Virus record (IMG/VR): IMGVR_UViG_3300022690_000141
Location: 1 to 27,180 of that record
Direction: 5' to 3' (one strand)
Length of the DNA: 27,180 bases
Source of the DNA: a virus
This document shows, in pieces, positions 1,354 through 25,985 of this stretch; the stretch's first letter is position 1, and every line of letters starts with the position of its first letter. Under the pieces are notes generated by a model. The model was not told where the DNA came from. It saw only the letters and a program-made list of their open reading frames with translations, and did not search any database. Both the position numbers and the translations under genes were made by a program.

Positions 1354-3636
1354 TTAGCTTTCCTCTTGCTTATCGCTAACGATATCGCTTTGAGTTTTCA
1401 TGTTATTAACTAAGCCTGGACCTATAATAGTTGCATTTCCACTAGCGTCTTGAATAGTTTTCAGGTTGTTGATAGCGTCATTAATCGATTGTTGTTGCGC
1501 TTTACCAACTGCCATGAACTCGTCAAACTCTTGCTTTCTTTGTGCTAAGTCTTGTTTCTCTGCATTCAATTGAATATTAGCGGCATCGACATTAAACTTA
1601 TCATCCTTCTCTCTTTGGAATTTAGCAACATCTAATTGTATTTCTTGTTCACGTAAATCAACTTTACGATTTTCTAGCTGAATATTAGCAACCTGTATTT
1701 GTTGGTTGCCTTGTATTTCAATCTGTTTGTTCTGAGCTTGGGTCATATCAGCCTGACCTTTTAACTCCTCTGCTCTTGCTGCTACCATCAGCGGATCTTC
1801 TTGAGCCGGTTGATTCTGTGCAGCTTCTTGTTGTGCTTGTCTAATCTGCTTCTCTTCATCTGTCAATTGTGACTCAGGAATTGCATCTTGCTGAAACAGT
1901 GACTCTCTAAATCTTTCAGACATCATATCCATACCTGGAATAGATAGGTTTTTAAGCCATATATCCATACCACGCTGTGCAACTTCTGGGTTTATAGCTG
2001 CCATATCCATAAACGCTTGAGTAGTTTCTTTTTGTTGACTGTTAAAAGCCGGACCAAAGTCACAGATAACATCATAATCGCCTTTAGATAAATCATTTAA
2101 CTCTACTGGTGTAGGACTTCCATCAGGGCGCAAGTTATCAAAGTCTAATACGTTATCATGAAGAGTAACCATTGAGCTTGTACCATCTTCTTCAAGGATA
2201 CGAACCTGTCTAGTTGAGTCGTAAACTCTGGGTATAGCATTGATTAATACCTTACCAACTTGACACACCATAACCTCTAATGACTTAAACCATTTGATTG
2301 AGCCTATGTTGCCTTGTTCTATTTGTTGACTACCGGCTATGCCTGATTGATTAGGGTTAGCATTACCTTGTAAGGCATTGAATGAATTGGCACTAGCTGA
2401 AATCATTTGTTGAGTATTAGCAATGGTAGTTTGTAAGCCTTGACTTGCAATAGGTCCACCTTCACTAGGTAAGAATGGTTGACCGTCTATGTGATTATAT
2501 AAACGTATTGGTGCATGGTCAGTATTCATCTTAGAATAGTCATAACCTGCTGCTTGCTCTCCTGTCATCCATTTAGCTGGTGAAGGAGATAATGCGCCAT
2601 CTTCTATATCTCTTGACATAGCATAGTTTAGAATACGTTGTTGATCGTAAAGCTTCTCTATCTTGCCAAAGTAAATAATTTTGTTTTCAAATATATCAAA
2701 GTTACCGTATATAGGAATGATAGGCAGGTCATTAAAAACTGTTTTCTCTTCCGGCTTTAACCAGTCACCGCCATCAAACAATCTAGAGTGTACACGCCAA
2801 GACTTTCTCATTCTGCGCTTTTCATCACCTTTATTGTCTAGCTCAATTGTAATTGGTTGACTACCATCAACAGGATTAGCTAATTCTTTTTGCACTGACT
2901 CAAATTTATCATCAACGCGATATACTGCACCGTTAGTCATTCGCACTAATTCGATATCAACTTGTTTCTTGTAATATAATTGGCCAACAGTTACAAAGTC
3001 AGCAGTATTAAAGAATGCTTGGTTTTGTCTATCATCTCCGACACTTTGACCTTTGCCATCTTTGAATCTTTCTTTATATTCTGCTGCCGGTATAGCGATT
3101 AACTTAACACACCATTTAGCATCACTTGCATCTTGTTTAACTGAGCCTAAATCAAACCATACTGAATCTAAAGCATTAGGCACTTTCTTAATAATTAAAT
3201 CTTGGTCGAATGAGTCACCGTCAACAAACTCTTGAACAACTTCAACAGCATCAAACCCACCAATAACATTAGAGCGAGAAGCATCGTTAAATACGCCATC
3301 AGCATTAGATATATTTCTTATATTTCTTATAAGTCCATCGTAAGTCTTAGCAACATCGATAGAAGAATCACCACCAGAAGGAGATACATTTAAGCTAAAG
3401 TCTGATTGTTCTATCTCTCCACTGATTTGATCTACAATAGGTGTACACATATCAAACGTGCCACGAAAGCGACCTTCTAACTTCTGCCATGCGTAAGGGT
3501 CCCATTGACCATCTCTTTTATTAAGGAATAACTTAGCATCTCTTGAGGCTTGTCTTGCATCAGTGGTCGCGTCTTGTGCTTCACTAATTATTACAAGTAC
3601 GTTGCTATGTTCACTAAAATCTATATCTATTGCCAT
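1354..3636 (-). CDS. Portal protein (P22 gp1-type)
   Basis: A 760-residue portal, close in length to the P22 portal (about 725). Twelve copies would form the ring at one head vertex through which the terminase pumps DNA and to which the tail attaches. Support: an N-terminal block with WDPYAWQKLEGRFRGTFDM followed by QISGEIEQSDFSLNVSP, the region by which P22-like portals are recognised; a mixed alpha/beta core; and a long C-terminal helical region (about residues 585-740), very rich in Q, E and K and largely coiled coil, matching the portal barrel. AGGA lies upstream of ATG 3636. It follows TerL by 15 bases, the usual terS-terL-portal order. The structured element at 1239-1307 follows it. Confidence 0.92.
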   Translation of the reverse strand: MAIDIDFSEHSNVLVIISEAQDATTDARQASRDAKLFLNKRDGQWDPYAWQKLEGRFRGTFDMCTPIVDQISGEIEQSDFSLNVSPSGGDSSIDVAKTYDGLIRNIRNISNADGVFNDASRSNVIGGFDAVEVVQEFVDGDSFDQDLIIKKVPNALDSVWFDLGSVKQDASDAKWCVKLIAIPAAEYKERFKDGKGQSVGDDRQNQAFFNTADFVTVGQLYYKKQVDIELVRMTNGAVYRVDDKFESVQKELANPVDGSQPITIELDNKGDEKRRMRKSWRVHSRLFDGGDWLKPEEKTVFNDLPIIPIYGNFDIFENKIIYFGKIEKLYDQQRILNYAMSRDIEDGALSPSPAKWMTGEQAAGYDYSKMNTDHAPIRLYNHIDGQPFLPSEGGPIASQGLQTTIANTQQMISASANSFNALQGNANPNQSGIAGSQQIEQGNIGSIKWFKSLEVMVCQVGKVLINAIPRVYDSTRQVRILEEDGTSSMVTLHDNVLDFDNLRPDGSPTPVELNDLSKGDYDVICDFGPAFNSQQKETTQAFMDMAAINPEVAQRGMDIWLKNLSIPGMDMMSERFRESLFQQDAIPESQLTDEEKQIRQAQQEAAQNQPAQEDPLMVAARAEELKGQADMTQAQNKQIEIQGNQQIQVANIQLENRKVDLREQEIQLDVAKFQREKDDKFNVDAANIQLNAEKQDLAQRKQEFDEFMAVGKAQQQSINDAINNLKTIQDASGNATIIGPGLVNNMKTQSDIVSDKQEES

Positions 3637-3651
3637 TTTTCTATATTCCTA

Positions 3652-5166
3652 TTAACAAATAGAGTCAAAGGTTAATGCTACCTTTTTGTTTAAATTAACT
3701 GGTTCAGTAAACGTTAAAGCTCCAGCATCACCGTAATCAGGACTAAACCCATACTTAGATTTAATCTTATCTTTCGACCATAAAACTCTTCTGTCGTTTG
3801 AGTCTCGTTCATAAGGAGAAGCGCATAAGTCTGCTTGCATCTCGTCATCATCTGGTATTTCAACGGGTAAAGATTCATCGACCATCCAATCAGCCATCTC
3901 GCCCCACATTTCATTTCGTTTGTTCTTATACTTCTTAGGTTTTAAAGGAGATGAACCAAAGTAAACAGCCTTAACCCTTTTTTTGTAACCTAATTCATGA
4001 AGCCTATCAACGATATCAGCACCGCCACCAGCATCAATAAACATCATATCAGGCTTCTTACCTGCTTCTTTGTCTACTGTGTCTAATAATTCTATACAGA
4101 TAGCAACATTCTTACCTAGCTTGTCGCATTCCTCGCCTTTGTAAGCCTCCATGCCATACATCTTTCTTGACTGCCTTTTAACAATAGCGAATCTATCACC
4201 ACCGCGACTAGGATCAACACCTACAATTAGCGGACCACTACCTTTAACTTTATTCTTCCTGGCTACCATGCAATGATCTGATTTAATTAAACCGTCACCA
4301 CCTGACACTTGAAAAGCTTCTGCTGCATTCATTGGGTATTCTTGTTTAAATGCCCTTGAACCGTCAACACCATCAGTTGTTAACTCTGCTACTTTCATTC
4401 TACGCCAGAACATTTGCTCTTTAGTTAAGGTGTAAATATCAGCAAGCGTTAACTCTTCATCAGTTAATACCGTGCCCTCTGGTACTTCTTTCTTATATTC
4501 TGCTTGCCAAAACCACGGAACAAAGATAGGCATGAATTCGCTTAACCCTTTCTCTGCTAGTTTCCATTGTTCATGAAAGAAGTTACCAACACCATTAGCG
4601 GTACTCTCCCATATTACTTCTGTACCATCTGCATCAGGTACCGCTTGCATGATACCTTTTGTATGCTCGCTAGCATTAACCCAGAATGAAACCTCTGAAC
4701 CATGAAAGTATTGTATTGTTTGACCACGGCCTACGGCCTTGTTACCTGCTGTACCTATCTTGTAACCAGAATCTAAAGCATCAAAGTGTAATTCTTTTGC
4801 GTTAGCTGCTGATGTAGTAGGCTTAACGAATGGAGGCAAGTTATCATAATAACGCTCGGTCATCTCAAACAGTGCGTTGGTTGACTCTCCGTCATGTGTA
4901 AGTATAAAAGCTTTAGTGCCTTTATTGTGAGTGGTTCGCCATATAAAGCGGCCCTCTACATAAGTACTTGCACCTTGTTGTCTACCCTTTAATAGAATAG
5001 CTCTAACTTTACCGGTATCTTTTAATTGAGTTTCTAGTTTTTCATGGATATATTTTTGTGCGTCATTAAGCAAAAGAGGCTGTAACCCCTCATGCTTTGT
5101 TCTAATCTTTAAACAGTTTCTTGCGTAATACTCAAAGTCATCTTTAAGCAACTGCCTTTTTTCCAT
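3652..5166 (-). CDS. Terminase large subunit (ATPase/nuclease)
   Basis: This is the DNA-packaging motor and headful nuclease. From ATG 5166 (MEKRQLLKDD) it is 504 residues. The ATPase half shows a Walker A-like loop KGRQQGAST (residues 60-68), a Walker B-like strand with the acidic pair region YFHGSEVSFW (about 153-162), and a coupling motif WESTANG (186-192). The nuclease half (RNase H fold) shows GVDPSRGGDR with Asp 318, FIDAGGG with Asp 378 and SPDYGDAGA with Asp 477/480, the expected metal-binding carboxylates. A TTG at 5178 would add four residues and overlap the terS stop, but the ATG four bases after that stop is more natural. It acts with the small subunit just upstream and docks on the portal encoded downstream. 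Confidence 0.93.
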   Translation of the reverse strand: MEKRQLLKDDFEYYARNCLKIRTKHEGLQPLLLNDAQKYIHEKLETQLKDTGKVRAILLKGRQQGASTYVEGRFIWRTTHNKGTKAFILTHDGESTNALFEMTERYYDNLPPFVKPTTSAANAKELHFDALDSGYKIGTAGNKAVGRGQTIQYFHGSEVSFWVNASEHTKGIMQAVPDADGTEVIWESTANGVGNFFHEQWKLAEKGLSEFMPIFVPWFWQAEYKKEVPEGTVLTDEELTLADIYTLTKEQMFWRRMKVAELTTDGVDGSRAFKQEYPMNAAEAFQVSGGDGLIKSDHCMVARKNKVKGSGPLIVGVDPSRGGDRFAIVKRQSRKMYGMEAYKGEECDKLGKNVAICIELLDTVDKEAGKKPDMMFIDAGGGADIVDRLHELGYKKRVKAVYFGSSPLKPKKYKNKRNEMWGEMADWMVDESLPVEIPDDDEMQADLCASPYERDSNDRRVLWSKDKIKSKYGFSPDYGDAGALTFTEPVNLNKKVALTFDSIC

Positions 5167-5170
5167 TTGG

Positions 5171-5590
5171 CTACTCAAGAGAGTCTAGCCATTGTTCATG
5201 TGTCATCTCTACGACAACTTGCTCTTGCTTATCACGCCATTGTTTAGGCTGTCTATTTTTAAGCCAAAATATCATTGCTGTAGTATCACCGGCTACATGT
5301 TTCTTAGTTGTAACCTTCTTAACACCTTGTTCTGACACCTCGTCACGTACTTCTGTAACCTCGTAACCCTTAGCTCTACCAAACAAAGAATTGACCACTT
5401 CTGCATCAGCTTTATGCTTTCCGCTTTTTATGGACTCAAAGAATGCAGGGTGCTCGTTCTTCCAATTGTTAATAGTTTGCTCTGTTACATCAAAGAATTC
5501 ACCTAGCCTTGCATCAGTAGCACCCATTAGGCAATACTTAAAAGCTAAGTCATTATACTCTTCTTTGTAGCTAGTTGGTTGGCCCGCCAT
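5171..5590 (-). CDS. Terminase small subunit
   Basis: A 139-residue DNA-recognition subunit of the packaging machine. The N-terminal helix-turn-helix (about residues 22-45, ATDARLGEFFDVTEQTINNW) would bind the pac site. The centre holds an assembly segment with KADAEVVNSLFGRAKGYE. The C-terminus has the family hallmark DTTAMIFWLKNRQPKQWRDK. This pattern is shared by many phage small terminases of the P22/Sf6-like and related groups. Its ATG overlaps the stop of the 21-residue basic peptide upstream (TAATG), and its stop lies four bases before the TerL ATG, so all three are likely translated together. The pac site is often inside terS in headful phages; I could not identify it. Confidence 0.9.
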   Translation of the reverse strand: MAGQPTSYKEEYNDLAFKYCLMGATDARLGEFFDVTEQTINNWKNEHPAFFESIKSGKHKADAEVVNSLFGRAKGYEVTEVRDEVSEQGVKKVTTKKHVAGDTTAMIFWLKNRQPKQWRDKQEQVVVEMTHEQWLDSLE

Positions 5591-5665: not shown

Positions 5666-6040
5666 TTAATCACAAGCTCTAACAACTGTTACAGTGTTTT
5701 GAAATACTGGTGGTAATTCTAAACCAGCAGTATTGGTTACTTTAAATTGATGTGTGTATTGACTAGCTGGAACAATAGTATCTAACATTTTAGCTTTAGT
5801 TAGCGTTGTTCTAAATACGACTATTGGATCTCCTGCGCTATCAACATCTGCCTCTGTTACGATATCACCAGCTAGTAGTGTCGCAGTTACTAATACAGTC
5901 GTACAGTCAGCAGCAAATATTCGGTATTCAGCAGCAGTAAAGTTAGAAGCATCTAATACGCCTACTACATTACCGGCTTCATCTACATCATCAACTCTTG
6001 TTTTAAATGTTTGCGCGCTGTTATTGGTTAGGTTTGACAT
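5666..6040 (-). CDS. Virion-type beta-rich hypothetical protein (124 aa)
   Basis: Starts at ATG 6040 (MSNLTNNSAQTFKTRVD). The sequence is T/V/A-rich with regularly alternating strands: VGVLDASNFTAAEYRIFAAD, then DPIVVFRTTLTKAKML, and finally YTHQFKVTNTAGLELPP. This suggests an immunoglobulin-like or beta-sandwich domain, the kind found in small tail or baseplate accessory proteins. There are no catalytic motifs and no signal peptide. It lies between the basic peptide/terS and a series of virion-like genes, one base from the gene upstream. Structural role inferred; family not recognised. Confidence 0.55.
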   Translation of the reverse strand: MSNLTNNSAQTFKTRVDDVDEAGNVVGVLDASNFTAAEYRIFAADCTTVLVTATLLAGDIVTEADVDSAGDPIVVFRTTLTKAKMLDTIVPASQYTHQFKVTNTAGLELPPVFQNTVTVVRACD

Positions 6041-6041
6041 A

Positions 6042-6494
6042 TTACACCACCGTACCAGTTAGTGAGCCACTTGCATTAACTGCATAATCAAAGTCATTGT
6101 TAATAACATCGATAGCCGTTGAACCATCACTTGTTAAATCAACCACCTTGTAAATATCGTCACTTGTTGAAGTGTCGTTTACTATTACAGCAGTTCTTAT
6201 GGTTGCTGGATTAGAGGCGTTTTTAACAATAGTTGCTAAGTCAGCATAATCTAACGTTGATACTGCTCCGCTCCTTAACCATGTAACGCTTGTTAGGACA
6301 ATACCAGCAACAGGAAAGTTACCACCACCCACTTGTGTAACATCACTTAGATTAAATGGTGTTTGCGTAGCGTCAATAGCTGCAAAAGTATCAGAACAAA
6401 AGAATATCCTAAAAGTATCTGATGTATTATTGTATGCTCCTGTACCCGCTTGCAATGGGTATTCTTGAGCTAGTTTTGAATCACCTGCTGCCAT
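6042..6494 (-). CDS. Virion-type hypothetical protein (150 aa)
   Basis: ATG 6494 opens MAAGDSKLAQEYPLQAGTGA. The protein is rich in T, S, D and V, with strands around TFRIFFCSDTFAAID and TSVTWLRSGAVSTLDY, and an acidic, flexible C-terminus that ends in SGSLTGTVV. The central motif GAVSTLDYADLATIVKNAS resembles small tail-tip or neck proteins I have seen in marine phages, but no function is known. It is immediately followed by the 5666-6040 gene and preceded by the repeat protein, all in one direction, so co-expression as late genes is likely. Confidence 0.55.
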   Translation of the reverse strand: MAAGDSKLAQEYPLQAGTGAYNNTSDTFRIFFCSDTFAAIDATQTPFNLSDVTQVGGGNFPVAGIVLTSVTWLRSGAVSTLDYADLATIVKNASNPATIRTAVIVNDTSTSDDIYKVVDLTSDGSTAIDVINNDFDYAVNASGSLTGTVV

Positions 6495-6506: not shown

Positions 6507-7196
6507 TTAACATGTTGTGGCTATTGTACCATTAAATACTAACCTTTTCGAATCACCGTTAAACTCTAGCGCTTCAAGGTTGCCGTTAAATTCTAATCTT
6601 TGTGATATACCGTTAAATGCATGTGACTCTACATCACCATTAAACCCTAATTGACTTATAAAACCATTAAATACTAATCGCTCTATACTGCCATCGAAAC
6701 AAACTGTTGAAACTATACCTATTGGCTCAGGAGTTAATAATATACTTGGGTTAAATGTATTGTAGTTTGTATTTACTAATTGTTCTGCTATCTCTATTAC
6801 GCCAGCGGTTAGGGTTATCGTTGCGTTAAGTGCTGCGTAATTTGTGTTAACTGTATTTTCTGTTATATCAACTAATCCGGTTAAATCTATAATCGGATCT
6901 AAACTAGTATAGTTAGTATTCTTTAACTGTTCGGTTATTGATATTACACCCGTTAAGGTTATAACTGGATTTAGTGTTGCGTAATTAGTATTAACCAGGC
7001 TTTCAGTTATTGATAATGTTCCGGTTAAAGTTATTGCAGGATCTAAAGAATTATAATTTATATTCTTTAATGTTTCTGTTACTGATATACCAGTAGATAC
7101 AAGCTCATTAAATACACCAGCGCCAGGGATTAAATACTGATCTCCGTTTTCATCATCTTGAACTACACCAAATCCTGGTATTAAGTATTGAGCCAT
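6507..7196 (-). CDS. Three-class tandem repeat protein (229 aa)
   Basis: The whole protein is built from repeats. Residues 3-28 hold two copies of QYLIPGxGV spaced by 17. Residues 38-158 hold five copies, period 24 (the last 25), of a unit like SITEQLKNTNYTSLDPIIDL. Residues 167-224 hold seven copies, spaced exactly nine residues, of an F-N-G nonapeptide (FNG at 176, 185, 194, 203, 212 and 221, plus FDG at 167). Such regular repeats predict a fibrous or solenoid beta structure. It overlaps the beta-helix gene upstream by one base and lies among virion-type genes, so a tail or head appendage is the likely role. I do not know a characterised homologue. Confidence 0.7.
   Translation of the reverse strand: MAQYLIPGFGVVQDDENGDQYLIPGAGVFNELVSTGISVTETLKNINYNSLDPAITLTGTLSITESLVNTNYATLNPVITLTGVISITEQLKNTNYTSLDPIIDLTGLVDITENTVNTNYAALNATITLTAGVIEIAEQLVNTNYNTFNPSILLTPEPIGIVSTVCFDGSIERLVFNGFISQLGFNGDVESHAFNGISQRLEFNGNLEALEFNGDSKRLVFNGTIATTC
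6525..6698 (-). repeat. 27-bp coding repeats (nonapeptide F-N-G units, 6-7 copies)
   Basis: On the plus strand, related words (CCGTTAAA or CCATTAAA) recur every 27 bases. They encode the exactly nine-residue-spaced F-[N/D]-G units. The DNA copies have diverged at third positions while the F, N and G codons stay, which suggests selection on the protein rather than a recent duplication. Confidence 0.75.
6723..7085 (-). repeat. 72-bp coding repeats (24-residue NTNY units, five copies)
   Basis: Five head-to-tail units of 24-25 codons, each with the core xITExLxNTNYxxLxPxIxL, spaced by 24, 24, 24 and 25 residues. The copies vary at many positions but keep NTNY (NINY in the first) and the hydrophobic alternation. 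They form the central part of the repeat protein. Confidence 0.75.
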
Positions 7197-8500
7197 TAGC
7201 TAATATCTGCTTTAGGGTTTACATAAACCGTTGTACTTGGCTTGGCTAGGCATAAAAACACTTGATATGGGCCTTGCTTTCCTGTTTGTGTCGTTGTTAC
7301 TGAGCATTTTTGTTTTACGTTAGTTCCGCTTAAACCCGTCCAACTTGCACTTGATGATGTTTGATTTGCGGTTGTTTGATTATCTGCGGCTCTATCCGTA
7401 TCAACATTATATAGTGCTGTTGTGTCATCAGGATATTGCACTTCTACCCATATCTCAGCATCAGTTAAGTCTGTTGTTGTTCCATCTTGTACGAATTCTA
7501 TATCAAATGTTTTTGCTGTTGAGAAATCAGCCCACCCCTGTATTATTGGGAACCTTGCTGGTATAAAAAACTCTTTCGCATTAGTGTTTGTTACTATTTT
7601 ATTTGATACAGTTGCGCTATCCGGGTTAGTTGCATCTAAAATAATTCCTGTATCACTGAATAGCTCACCTTGCCTAACTGATCTATACTGTCTATTTACA
7701 GTGTTAGCGCTATCAACACCTTCAATTATTATTGTTTGTGCCGTGTCTGTTTTAACGTTCCTAACCAAGTTAACCGTTAATGCGTTAAGCGCGCAGTTAG
7801 TAGCTATAAATGTCTGGTCTGTTGCTAGGTCGGCAAAATTAACCTGCGCAACACCAGTGCAATCAACACCATCCATAAAAACTACAGACTGATTCGCAAC
7901 GGCTATTACACCATGATCAAGGTCTCCTGTTGCCGTTACAACTGTACTAATAGTTCCTCCTTTTATAATGACTGACTCGTCAGATGCTATCTCTATAACT
8001 GAATTGATTTTACTTGTGTTTGTGCTTTCATTTCTTCTTGTGTCGTTGAGTGATTCTAAGCCATCATCAGTTGCGCCATACCTTATCGCTGGTGATGTGC
8101 TGCCAGTTATCAACCCGCAGACATGCGTGTTTTCTTCCGTTGTGCCATCTTTAACAGTTAACGCCCTACCCCCTGCAAAATAAACACCAAAAACATAACT
8201 ACCTACTAAATCTATAGTAAGGTCGTCATTAGTGCCTATACCACTTAGTTGTGCTGTCATTGCTGGTGATGAGGTTATAGTTGTAGCTCCTGATACTGTT
8301 GAGCTTATAATTGTGCAACCAGCAGGAAAAATAAAGGTTTTACTCCCTGCTGTTAACGACTCTGAACTAGTCCTAGCCCAAGCTAAAGTGTCGGATGCTG
8401 ACATTCCAGTTATTGCAGCCGATAAAGTAGTATAAGCATCGGACCATGTTGTTCCGTCTGCACCGCCAACAGCGGCACTATCTAAAAATACATCAGCCAC
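7196..8500 (-). CDS. Beta-helix-like tail appendage protein (434 aa)
   Basis: Starts with GTG at 8500 (read as MADVFLDSAAVGGADGTTW); AGGAG lies eight bases upstream, and no nearby ATG competes. The N-terminal motif DGTTWSDAYTTLSAAI is typical of right-handed parallel beta-helix proteins, whose first strand is followed by repeated short strands. These continue as SKTFIFPAGCTIISSTVSG, GGRALTVKDG, SVIIKGGTIST and SVVFMDGVDCTG. The C-terminal about 130 residues form a different, beta-sandwich-like domain (FDIEFVQDG, IWVEVQYPDDTTALYN). In phages such proteins are spikes or appendages that may bind surface glycans; no catalytic residues are evident. The 3' end joins the repeat protein and the 5' end overlaps the upstream gene by eight bases. 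Confidence 0.65.
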   Translation of the reverse strand: MADVFLDSAAVGGADGTTWSDAYTTLSAAITGMSASDTLAWARTSSESLTAGSKTFIFPAGCTIISSTVSGATTITSSPAMTAQLSGIGTNDDLTIDLVGSYVFGVYFAGGRALTVKDGTTEENTHVCGLITGSTSPAIRYGATDDGLESLNDTRRNESTNTSKINSVIEIASDESVIIKGGTISTVVTATGDLDHGVIAVANQSVVFMDGVDCTGVAQVNFADLATDQTFIATNCALNALTVNLVRNVKTDTAQTIIIEGVDSANTVNRQYRSVRQGELFSDTGIILDATNPDSATVSNKIVTNTNAKEFFIPARFPIIQGWADFSTAKTFDIEFVQDGTTTDLTDAEIWVEVQYPDDTTALYNVDTDRAADNQTTANQTSSSASWTGLSGTNVKQKCSVTTTQTGKQGPYQVFLCLAKPSTTVYVNPKADIS

Positions 8501-23676: not shown

Positions 23677-24284
23677 TGAAACGAATTAAAATGCCGTTAA
23701 ACTTTAGAATGCAAAACTTCTTATTTTTACCTAATGGTGAAATATTCTGGACCAGTGCTAGTAAAACTATTTGGCAGAAGATCAAACGATGGTGGAATAA
23801 AGATAAGTCTGAAATGTGCAATACATCGAGAGGCTTTACTTTGCCTTTTCATGGTCAGTATATTCGCACTGATGGGTTGTTTATCTATCGTGACTTTGAT
23901 AAAAATGTAAACCTCTATGAATTATCTACAGGTAAAGATATAGGGCTACAAATGGGAGGGAGTAAATTACCTGCTGGTGCTTTTGATAACGTTCACAGCA
24001 GTAAGGCTAGGCAAGGTTGCTCGTTTAATCCTTCAACGCTAGAGTATGATTTTATAGTGTTTGGTAATAAAGGTGATAGACCTATTGATATTAAATCTAT
24101 GATCACTGGTGATTATATTCAAACGTTAACTTATGTTGATTTCTGTAAAAGTTACTGGGCTAGTTGGGAGGCCGAAGGGTTGCAGTATGATTTAGATGGT
24201 AATTTATGGGTCGGGATAAGCGTCAAAACTAAGTATCTTAGCTCTCATTTTGGCGCTATCCTTAATTATTATCACAAGCTTTAA
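23673..24284 (+). CDS. Beta-rich hypothetical protein (203 aa), propeller-like
   Basis: Starts at ATG 23673 or 23676. The sequence has repeated strand-turn-strand pieces (FRMQNFLFLPNGEIFWTSAS, then GQYIRTDGLFIYRDF and SFNPSTLEYDFIVFGNKGDR) and a strongly propeller-like end: SWEAEGLQYDLDGNLWVGIS, where 'EAEGLQ...GNLWVG' is a blade motif of secreted and cell-wall-associated beta-propellers. There is no signal peptide. It is coupled to the endolysin by ATGA and is convergent with the fibre genes. It could be a virion or lysis accessory. Family not firmly identified. Confidence 0.55.
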   Translation: MMKRIKMPLNFRMQNFLFLPNGEIFWTSASKTIWQKIKRWWNKDKSEMCNTSRGFTLPFHGQYIRTDGLFIYRDFDKNVNLYELSTGKDIGLQMGGSKLPAGAFDNVHSSKARQGCSFNPSTLEYDFIVFGNKGDRPIDIKSMITGDYIQTLTYVDFCKSYWASWEAEGLQYDLDGNLWVGISVKTKYLSSHFGAILNYYHKL

Positions 24285-24694
24285 ATACTTTCGTCTTGTG
24301 TACCGTCTCGAAGCAGTTTAATTACATGAGCTGCTTCATCCGTTATAATCTCACCAACCTTTAATACTGAGCAAATATAAGTTACACCATCAATAGTATC
24401 TTGAAAGTCTAGGTCAGCATAACTCGCATTTAATAACCGTGATTTAATAACCGTTGCAGCAGGGTCAGAAGCTATAAACACCTCTTCTGTTATTGTAAAG
24501 CGCCTTTGCATTGCACCTGTTGATATTTTTCGTATAGCATCAGGAGTTGCAGGTGTAGTTGAGTAAATAGCTGGATGGCTACCATAACCAGTTAAAACAC
24601 CGTTTTCAAACTTACCACCATGAGCCTCTAGATATTCATCACCTTCTGCTGGTGTTCCGTCTATCCAACCATGTACATTATGATGTATTTTCAT
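24281..24694 (-). CDS. Fibre-associated hypothetical protein (137 aa)
   Basis: Starts at ATG 24694 (MKIHHNVHGWIDGTPAEGDE), overlapping the previous stop (TAATG). After a short N-terminal domain, residues about 52-90 (DAIRKISTGAMQRRFTITEE, then VFIASDPAATVIKSRLLNAS) resemble the C-terminal type found in small tail or fibre accessory proteins. It is the third in a fibre - accessory - accessory set, so a fibre chaperone or cap role is plausible. Its 3' end meets the convergent plus gene in a four-base overlap. Confidence 0.55.
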   Translation of the reverse strand: MKIHHNVHGWIDGTPAEGDEYLEAHGGKFENGVLTGYGSHPAIYSTTPATPDAIRKISTGAMQRRFTITEEVFIASDPAATVIKSRLLNASYADLDFQDTIDGVTYICSVLKVGEIITDEAAHVIKLLRDGTQDESI

Positions 24695-25107
24695 TACTTA
24701 ATTACTCCTGTTGAATAGCTATATCTGTAAGGATTTGCGCCAGAAGCAGCTTGTCTTATTAGTTTTATTACCTCGTCAACACCACCAATTAAAGGTTGTA
24801 AATTACCAGAAGCAGAAGCAAGCCCAGCACCACTATTAGCTATACTCCATTCGCCTATATTGTCAGAGTTTCCACCAAGTGCTAAGGCTGTAATTATATT
24901 TACACCATCAACTTGTAAATCATGTGAAACGGTATCGCCATTGTTTAAATTTTCTAGCCTTACTCTTTCTCCTGATGGTGGAGTTAAAGTGAATATAGTT
25001 ACTCCGACACCTCCGCCAGCAGCAACTTGTAATGTGCCACTAAAGAATTTTGGAACGAATTCACCACCGCCACTAGCATTAATTAGTTCTAAAGGTATAT
25101 CTGCCAT
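24694..25107 (-). CDS. Fibre-associated hypothetical protein (137 aa)
   Basis: ATG 25107 overlaps the fibre stop. The sequence is glycine/valine rich with beta strands (FVPKFFSGTLQVAAGGGVGV, then IFTLTPPSGERVRLENLNNG and WSIANSGAGLASASGNLQPL). Such beta-sandwich domains are common in small phage tail and head-decoration proteins. It is coupled on both sides, suggesting equal expression with the fibre. Family not recognised. Confidence 0.55.
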   Translation of the reverse strand: MADIPLELINASGGGEFVPKFFSGTLQVAAGGGVGVTIFTLTPPSGERVRLENLNNGDTVSHDLQVDGVNIITALALGGNSDNIGEWSIANSGAGLASASGNLQPLIGGVDEVIKLIRQAASGANPYRYSYSTGVIK

Positions 25108-25985
25108 TATAACGACTCCAAAATTGTTGTTGTTTTAGCTATTAATATAGCTGTTCTACCAGCCTTTATAACTATATTATCTGAACTTGTAGCTGTTGAG
25201 CCAGCACCTTTAATTGTTAATGCCGTGTTTGTTAATCTAACTGTGTTGGTAGAAATAGATTCGTTATGAACTACAATTGAATCACCTACAACATAAGCTG
25301 ATTTTAATGCTGCGTCTACTGAACCACCGCTAGCATCTATTTGATACTTCTTACCAGCAAACACTGTAAAGGCTAAACTCTTGTTAACCCATTGACCATC
25401 GATTGCAACAGACCAGTTTGTACCGTCATCAGTTTCAGGGTTATTTGCTGCTGTAGCTGTTAAAGCTTTCCATAAATTACCTACAGTTGATAATACTACA
25501 TCGTTAATAGCGTAAGTTATGTTTGTGTTCCATACACCTAGAAGTTTGAATAACTCCCACTTGTCAGCGTTAGTTAATGGATCGTTAGCTTGGTTAGCAT
25601 TAGATAAAGACTTGTAAAAGTTACCGTCCGAACCTTCTACTATGTCGTTTAAATCATAAGTTACTGCTGTGTCCCATAAAGTAAAATCACCTAATTCCTT
25701 TTCTCCACCTACAGGATCACGTTCAAATATCTGCTTACCAGTTTCACCCGTTGATAAATCATCAGCGACAAACACAACTTTAGCCGAACCACTGAAAAAT
25801 ATATTAGGCGTTCTTGCTGCTGCGTCTAATAATACTGGATGCGTATTAGGTATTGACTCTGCTTCATCCTTAAATGTGACTAGTTGCGTATTTGTACTAC
25901 TCTTAAAAAAGAATAGCTTACCATTTACTAACGGATTACCGGCACCGTCTAAGTATTGTGGTACTGGGTTTTCATATCTAGCCAT
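25107..25985 (-). CDS. Tail fibre/spike protein with two chitin-binding-like modules
   Basis: The N-terminus (MARYENPVPQYLDGAGNPLV, then NGKLFFFKSSTNTQLVTFKD) is the characteristic podovirus/siphovirus fibre anchor that attaches to the tail. Residues about 104-145 and 152-193 are two related modules of the CBM5/12 (ChtBD3) type: LWDTAVTYDLNDIVEGSDGN then FYKSL, and VWNTNITYAINDVVLSTVGN then LWKAL, each ended by a Trp after a spacer. They would bind chitin or peptidoglycan-like polymers. The C-terminal 90 residues are a beta-rich terminal domain (AFTVFAGKKYQIDASGGSVD). Likely receptor-binding or adsorption-assisting. Confidence 0.75.
   Translation of the reverse strand: MARYENPVPQYLDGAGNPLVNGKLFFFKSSTNTQLVTFKDEAESIPNTHPVLLDAAARTPNIFFSGSAKVVFVADDLSTGETGKQIFERDPVGGEKELGDFTLWDTAVTYDLNDIVEGSDGNFYKSLSNANQANDPLTNADKWELFKLLGVWNTNITYAINDVVLSTVGNLWKALTATAANNPETDDGTNWSVAIDGQWVNKSLAFTVFAGKKYQIDASGGSVDAALKSAYVVGDSIVVHNESISTNTVRLTNTALTIKGAGSTATSSDNIVIKAGRTAILIAKTTTILESL

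Follow-up and report, generated by a model that had tools for sequence, protein, structure and literature searches.

The 229-residue protein described here, which we call the carrier, is probably a subunit of an accessory virion fibre in a phage with a P22-type portal, docking through its C-terminus and holding its N-terminus distal. It is encoded on the minus strand of the window (6507–7196), the window being a complete IMG/VR virus record (27,180 bases). The family to which it belongs is real and unusual, and has no name in the libraries searched. Its members share a repeat grammar in which copy numbers change by whole units, exchange their N-termini at a sharp border and keep a constant Ig-like neighbour gene, and relatives lie in tail blocks. 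In the working model that we propose, a C-terminal array of FNG nonapeptides would be the constant docking end, probably bound to the small Ig-like protein whose gene lies downstream and, by way of it, to the virion. Units of 24 residues would build a beta-rich spacer, their number determining how far it reaches. The N-terminus would be the distal, exchangeable end, which in relatives appears fused to laminin-G-like or other domains and which in the window, as a plug of two YLIPGxGV copies, may dock a payload encoded directly upstream.

Three repeat classes in one protein

The initial annotation had reported three tandem repeat classes in this protein, namely two copies of QYLIPGxGV, five NTNY-type 24-residue units and seven F-[N/D]-G units at nine-residue spacing. 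All three counts are borne out by the translation, with the correction that the open reading frame lies on the minus strand, from an ATG at 7196 to 6507. The N-terminal plug (minus strand, 7113–7190) holds QYLIPGxGV at residues 3–11 and 20–28, with YLIPG starting at residues 4 and 21. The stalk follows (minus strand, 6723–7085; residues 38–158) with five units of consensus SITEQLVNTNYTSLNPTITLTGxI; N[TI]NY occurs at residues 45, 69, 93, 117 and 142, at spacings of 24, 24, 24 and 25, so that the fifth unit is shifted by one residue. The C-terminal module (minus strand, 6510–6698; residues 167–229) consists of seven F[N/D]G units with a nine-residue period and ends in FNGTIATTC. Here the motif starts at residues 167, 176, 185, 194, 203, 212 and 221, every spacing being exactly nine. 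Chance is excluded as the source of these repeats by 20,000 shuffles of the protein: self-matches number 42 at lag 24 (shuffle mean 9.9, maximum 23) and 22 at lag 9 (mean 3.7, maximum 13). At the DNA level, in-register 24-mers are 47–71% identical and 9-mers 33–70%, and it is this divergence that leaves Tandem Repeats Finder blind to them.

Neither of two known repeat types fits the nonapeptide. The RTX beta-roll is built on GGxGxDxUx and was rejected, the carrier unit having the consensus [FY][NDS]G-x-[LI]-x-x-L-x instead. A collagen-like phage fibre, with its continuous G-x-y triplets, was rejected as well, there being one conserved glycine per nine residues in the carrier. AlphaFold2 with the family alignment gave a model with pLDDT 57 and pTM 0.38, four of the five models lying at 35–40, in which each 24-mer contains strands (block means 64–72). 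Foldseek searches with this model returned nothing significant (best E 0.057), several of the hits being to beta-solenoids. Since a multi-chain fibre need not fold as a monomer, the model speaks neither for nor against a beta-solenoid or triple beta-spiral fibre.

Relatives and their exchangeable N-termini

Searches of the repeat protein against Pfam, PHROG, PADLOC and PDB sequences gave no significant match. Among cultured phages, tblastn with the repeat protein, the 124-residue neighbour described below, the FNG protein of one relative (L027) and the YLIPG stretch found nothing convincing; a Stenotrophomonas match with E 5 was discarded, and the YLIPG pair as a DNA pattern in one codon choice, a weak test, had no match. 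True relatives were found in about twenty IMG/VR contigs through scans by protein, by FNG DNA pattern and by the 124-residue neighbour. Collagen-like and off-frame matches from the pattern scan were set aside. Among 397 bacterial genomes from the family of Pseudoalteromonas aurantia, 5 also match the 124-residue profile: three have an FNG protein upstream, one is cut by a contig edge, and one (L114), a weak 30-residue match within a long frame, was set aside. An initial scan of genome contigs had found no relatives and was insensitive, as the later profile matches make plain. A related profile matched none of the genomes drawn from the order (395) or the class (369), a search that used a different profile on thinly sampled groups. 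The matches point to hosts in the family of P. aurantia, which for the window itself is only a guess.

Four further loci (L099, L100, L102 and L105) contain F-x-G repeats that we judged unrelated to the carrier family. Two of them encode viral proteins of ~490–550 residues (L102, 3658–5136; L105, 1660–3300) made nearly entirely of F-x-G or Y-x-G type repeats, strikingly regular and showing NFSGSAVNE-type units of nine residues close to their start.

An alignment of 16 homologous sequences allowed us to describe the repeat grammar of the family. The C-terminal FNG array is the part common to all of them; 71 of its 72 F-x-G spacings are nine, and a terminal cysteine is present in 16/16. Homologues differ in copy number, with 2, 5, 6 or no 24-mers and from 2–3 up to about 8 F-x-G units, and every such indel in the alignment comprises whole repeat units. 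This variation supports the earlier idea of an appendage of variable length. Where 24-mers are missing, other stalks can take their place: in one relative (L065, 5272–5997) the FNG end sits on about seven 20-residue GSGALQSQxATTAGTGxV units, and prophage-type relatives use other repeat types. Orthologous 24-mers from different viruses are more alike (59% identity) than different units within one protein (48%), which indicates that the array was not freshly duplicated. The three repeat classes are all real and do not form one device: the FNG class is constant, and the 24-mer and YLIPG classes are each one of several interchangeable types.

The N-terminus differs in nearly every lineage, and the YLIPG plug of the window is unlike that of all relatives found. 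Short, tandem, hydrophobic N-termini occur elsewhere, as RYWAKRYWAK in L006, AFSSNAFSSASFSELSF in L050, RLGLYRLGAVRLGF in L034 and VNTWGAVNVWEAG in L055, and the YLIPGxGV pair is one of this set. Other relatives carry large N-terminal domains, either laminin-G-like (L060; PF13385, E 3e-8) or with no library match. DNA comparison with blastn places the change at a sharp border, where the 24-mer array begins (7092–7097): similarity to L002, L034 and L003 sets in at 7092, 7097 and 7095 respectively, and continues at 75–81% identity through the 124-residue gene. Such a border is the picture expected when N-terminal modules are exchanged onto a kept stalk and anchor.

This pattern bears directly on which end of the carrier would face the virion. 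Like classical trimeric side fibres and tailspikes of the P22 type, the carrier family is repeat-built and bears exchangeable carbohydrate-active domains, but its constant end is C-terminal and its exchanged end N-terminal. A classical N-terminally anchored fibre or tailspike was rejected as a description on these grounds, and the polarity of the carrier appears, judging by its relatives, to be reversed. One could still propose the ordinary orientation, with the N-terminal plug holding on to the virion and the FNG array as the tip that binds the receptor. Classical side fibres do attach N-terminally (PMC13243795) and the number of FNG units varies, yet what relatives swap for laminin-G-like or other domains is the N-terminus, the FNG end and its neighbouring gene remaining constant, and variability would be expected of the part that binds the receptor. 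We consider this orientation unlikely. A constant C-terminus fits attachment at that end, although it is not proof of it.

Gene neighbourhood and tail-block location of relatives

The genes around the carrier all run in one direction, in the order 434-residue protein, carrier, 150-residue protein, 124-residue protein, terminase and portal. Upstream, the stop codon of the gene for the 434-residue protein (minus strand, 7196–8500) overlaps the carrier ATG; by its position, and by analogy with relatives that have a separate upstream payload gene, this protein is a candidate payload. On the other side stand the 150-residue protein (minus strand, 6042–6494), the 124-residue protein (minus strand, 5666–6040) and, downstream of this cassette, the terminase small and large subunits and a P22-like portal (minus strand, 1354–5590), the portal being identified by PF16510 (E 1e-116).

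The 124-residue protein is the constant neighbour of FNG proteins. Its Ig fold is assigned by analogy to gp36 of phage LSH1, and a profile search of the PDB gave nothing significant. In every locus complete enough to judge, bacterial genomes included, the gene for the FNG protein has an Ig-like gene behind it, directly or, where the 150-residue gene is present, one gene later. Within the Ig-like family (5666–6040 of the window and its homologues), cysteine occupies alignment columns 52 and 129 together or not at all in 27/27 loci, and columns 4 and 24 are paired likewise in 27/27. A lineage may possess either pair, both of them (L024, L020) or neither, which suggests two alternative disulfides.

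The 150-residue protein matches phrog_644, a family with no assigned function, weakly (E 0.0061); this match belongs to the neighbour and not to the repeat protein itself. AlphaFold2 gave no confident fold for it (pLDDT 39). It was also rejected as a homologue of the GP4-fibre/whisker family, having no PF23140 match, no PDB match and an hhalign probability of 0.4 against the whisker family. Its gene adjoins FNG proteins only where these carry 24-mers, and among the loci gene and 24-mer stalk are always both present or both absent. Because this is a single event on the tree, the co-occurrence alone is no evidence that the two interact.

In other genomes the cassette has a different third gene, of 110–112 residues. 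Trios of payload-FNG, Ig-like and whisker-like genes stand after a block of tape-measure, baseplate and fibre-like genes in L115 and L117 and inside such a block in L118, and in L039 a trio of payload-FNG, Ig-like and 112-residue genes is likewise found at the end of or within one, the gene types of these four blocks being judged from sequence resemblance. The 112-residue protein of L039 matches the 110-residue chain of 9C39 and 9MT4 (E about 1e-6), 9C39 being the neck of phage Sf14, for which gp30 and gp31 whiskers were described (PMC11821841). It also matches PF23140, podophage GP4 fibre I gp80, weakly (E 0.033). The likeness to Sf14 whiskers and GP4 fibre I concerns the third gene in cassettes of the bacterial and L039 types. 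Whisker-like genes are confined to L039, L110, L111, L112 and L113, and the window has none.

Taken with the co-directional run that adjoins terminase and portal, these tail and baseplate blocks uphold the original placement of the carrier among virion genes, and the carrier is predicted to be present in virions of the window phage. The same neighbourhood could be read as that of a capsid fibre or head decoration, since the carrier gene stands beside terminase and portal genes and since phrog_240, which includes the third gene of prophage-type relatives, is annotated as a head protein. Against this, the cassette adjoins genes of tape-measure and baseplate type in bacterial genomes, and the relative of the 150-residue protein encoded by MW202475 (phrog_644; 33% identity by tblastn) is flanked by tail adaptor and tail fibre genes. 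A place on the head is therefore improbable.

Payloads and comparison with known appendages

Reading the carrier as a C-terminally docked fibre subunit leads to the question of what it would carry. The FNG module forms its own protein of 94–101 residues behind large genes in L047, L050, L052, L055, L057 and L059, and one payload family occurs fused to the stalk in L024 and as a separate protein in L052 (35% identity over 339 residues, E 2e-39). Being fused in some relatives and separate in others, payload and FNG protein are expected to work together. The free payloads of L055 and L057 share similarity confined to an 82-residue C-terminal piece that is 79% identical, and short N-terminal plugs may be the docking place for a separate payload. 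The L057 payload carries a SASA carbohydrate esterase domain (PF03629, E 8e-15), and Laminin_G_3 also occurs among payloads. With predicted esterase and lectin-like domains among the payloads of relatives, the likely job of the carrier is the binding or clearing of host surface polysaccharide.

The closest comparison is with the Alishewanella siphophage LSH1, in which gp34–gp36 provide a payload, a GP4-fibre-like protein and an Ig module, found in virions by mass spectrometry (PMC13243795). The C-terminal part of the gp34 payload is unexplained and poorly predicted, and a repetitive motif was asked about as the cause; gp34 was also matched to Alishewanella phage Slickus01 (OQ508957) (PMC13243795). 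Our link to LSH1 is indirect and runs through L039-type loci and Slickus01. The 124-residue protein of the window aligns with the L039 Ig-like protein (30% over 118 residues, E 2e-12), and L039 in turn matches Slickus01 in its payload (E 3e-8) and, by profile, in its third gene (E 3e-10). Slickus01 has the payload, small, small layout of the window-type cassette, and our Ig-like profile fails to detect its small Ig-like gene. In Slickus01 (L108, 4380–11321) a 2,313-residue payload with long runs of STFDISDV-like repeats stands beside the cassette-like genes.

The window shares with LSH1 three adjacent co-directional genes (6507–7196, 6042–6494 and 5666–6040) that include a carrier and an Ig-type protein. 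The wider likeness is that of a large payload, which has a domain at its N-terminus and a C-terminal part that is unexplained, accompanied by an Ig-type and a small fibre protein. The differences are that the window carrier has no payload domain and that it ends in a defined FNG module, borne on a 24-mer stalk. The third protein of the window is of the phrog_644 type and shows no detectable resemblance to the GP4-fibre/whisker family. The window is a metagenomic contig; the virion mass spectrometry is that of LSH1. For a protein of the gp34 kind, the carrier family offers a readable grammar of constant FNG end, interchangeable stalk and interchangeable payload.

In several relatives the FNG module stands alone as a small protein encoded behind large payload-like genes, and one could imagine that it helps to assemble or chaperone the upstream payload and is not retained in the virion. 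This is very improbable, as many relatives have the module fused to a payload with a long stalk and the comparable LSH1 module is in virions (PMC13243795). A non-structural early protein, for which we found no supporting point, has next to no credibility given the start/stop overlap with the upstream gene, the shared direction with terminase and portal, and the tail-block location of relatives.

If the FNG end is the anchor, as a C-terminally docked fibre would have it, the place where such appendages attach is predicted, the socket becomes open to study in laboratory phages, and annotators would have a short motif to use, F[N/D]G repeated every nine residues right before a stop codon, with a small Ig-like gene downstream. 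More tentatively, the FNG array with its Ig-like partner could be a general C-terminal plug used across tail types, with exchangeable N-terminal payloads and with stalk cassettes (NTNY 24-mers, GSGAL 20-mers and others) setting the length, a generalization that we rate as possible but somewhat doubtful. Were it true, it would constitute a natural phage-display socket of polarity opposite to that of classical fibres.

The window also contains a second minus-strand group of three genes (24281–25985), with only weak profile matches. Judged by eye, its first gene (292 residues) has the look of a fibre or spike N-terminus.
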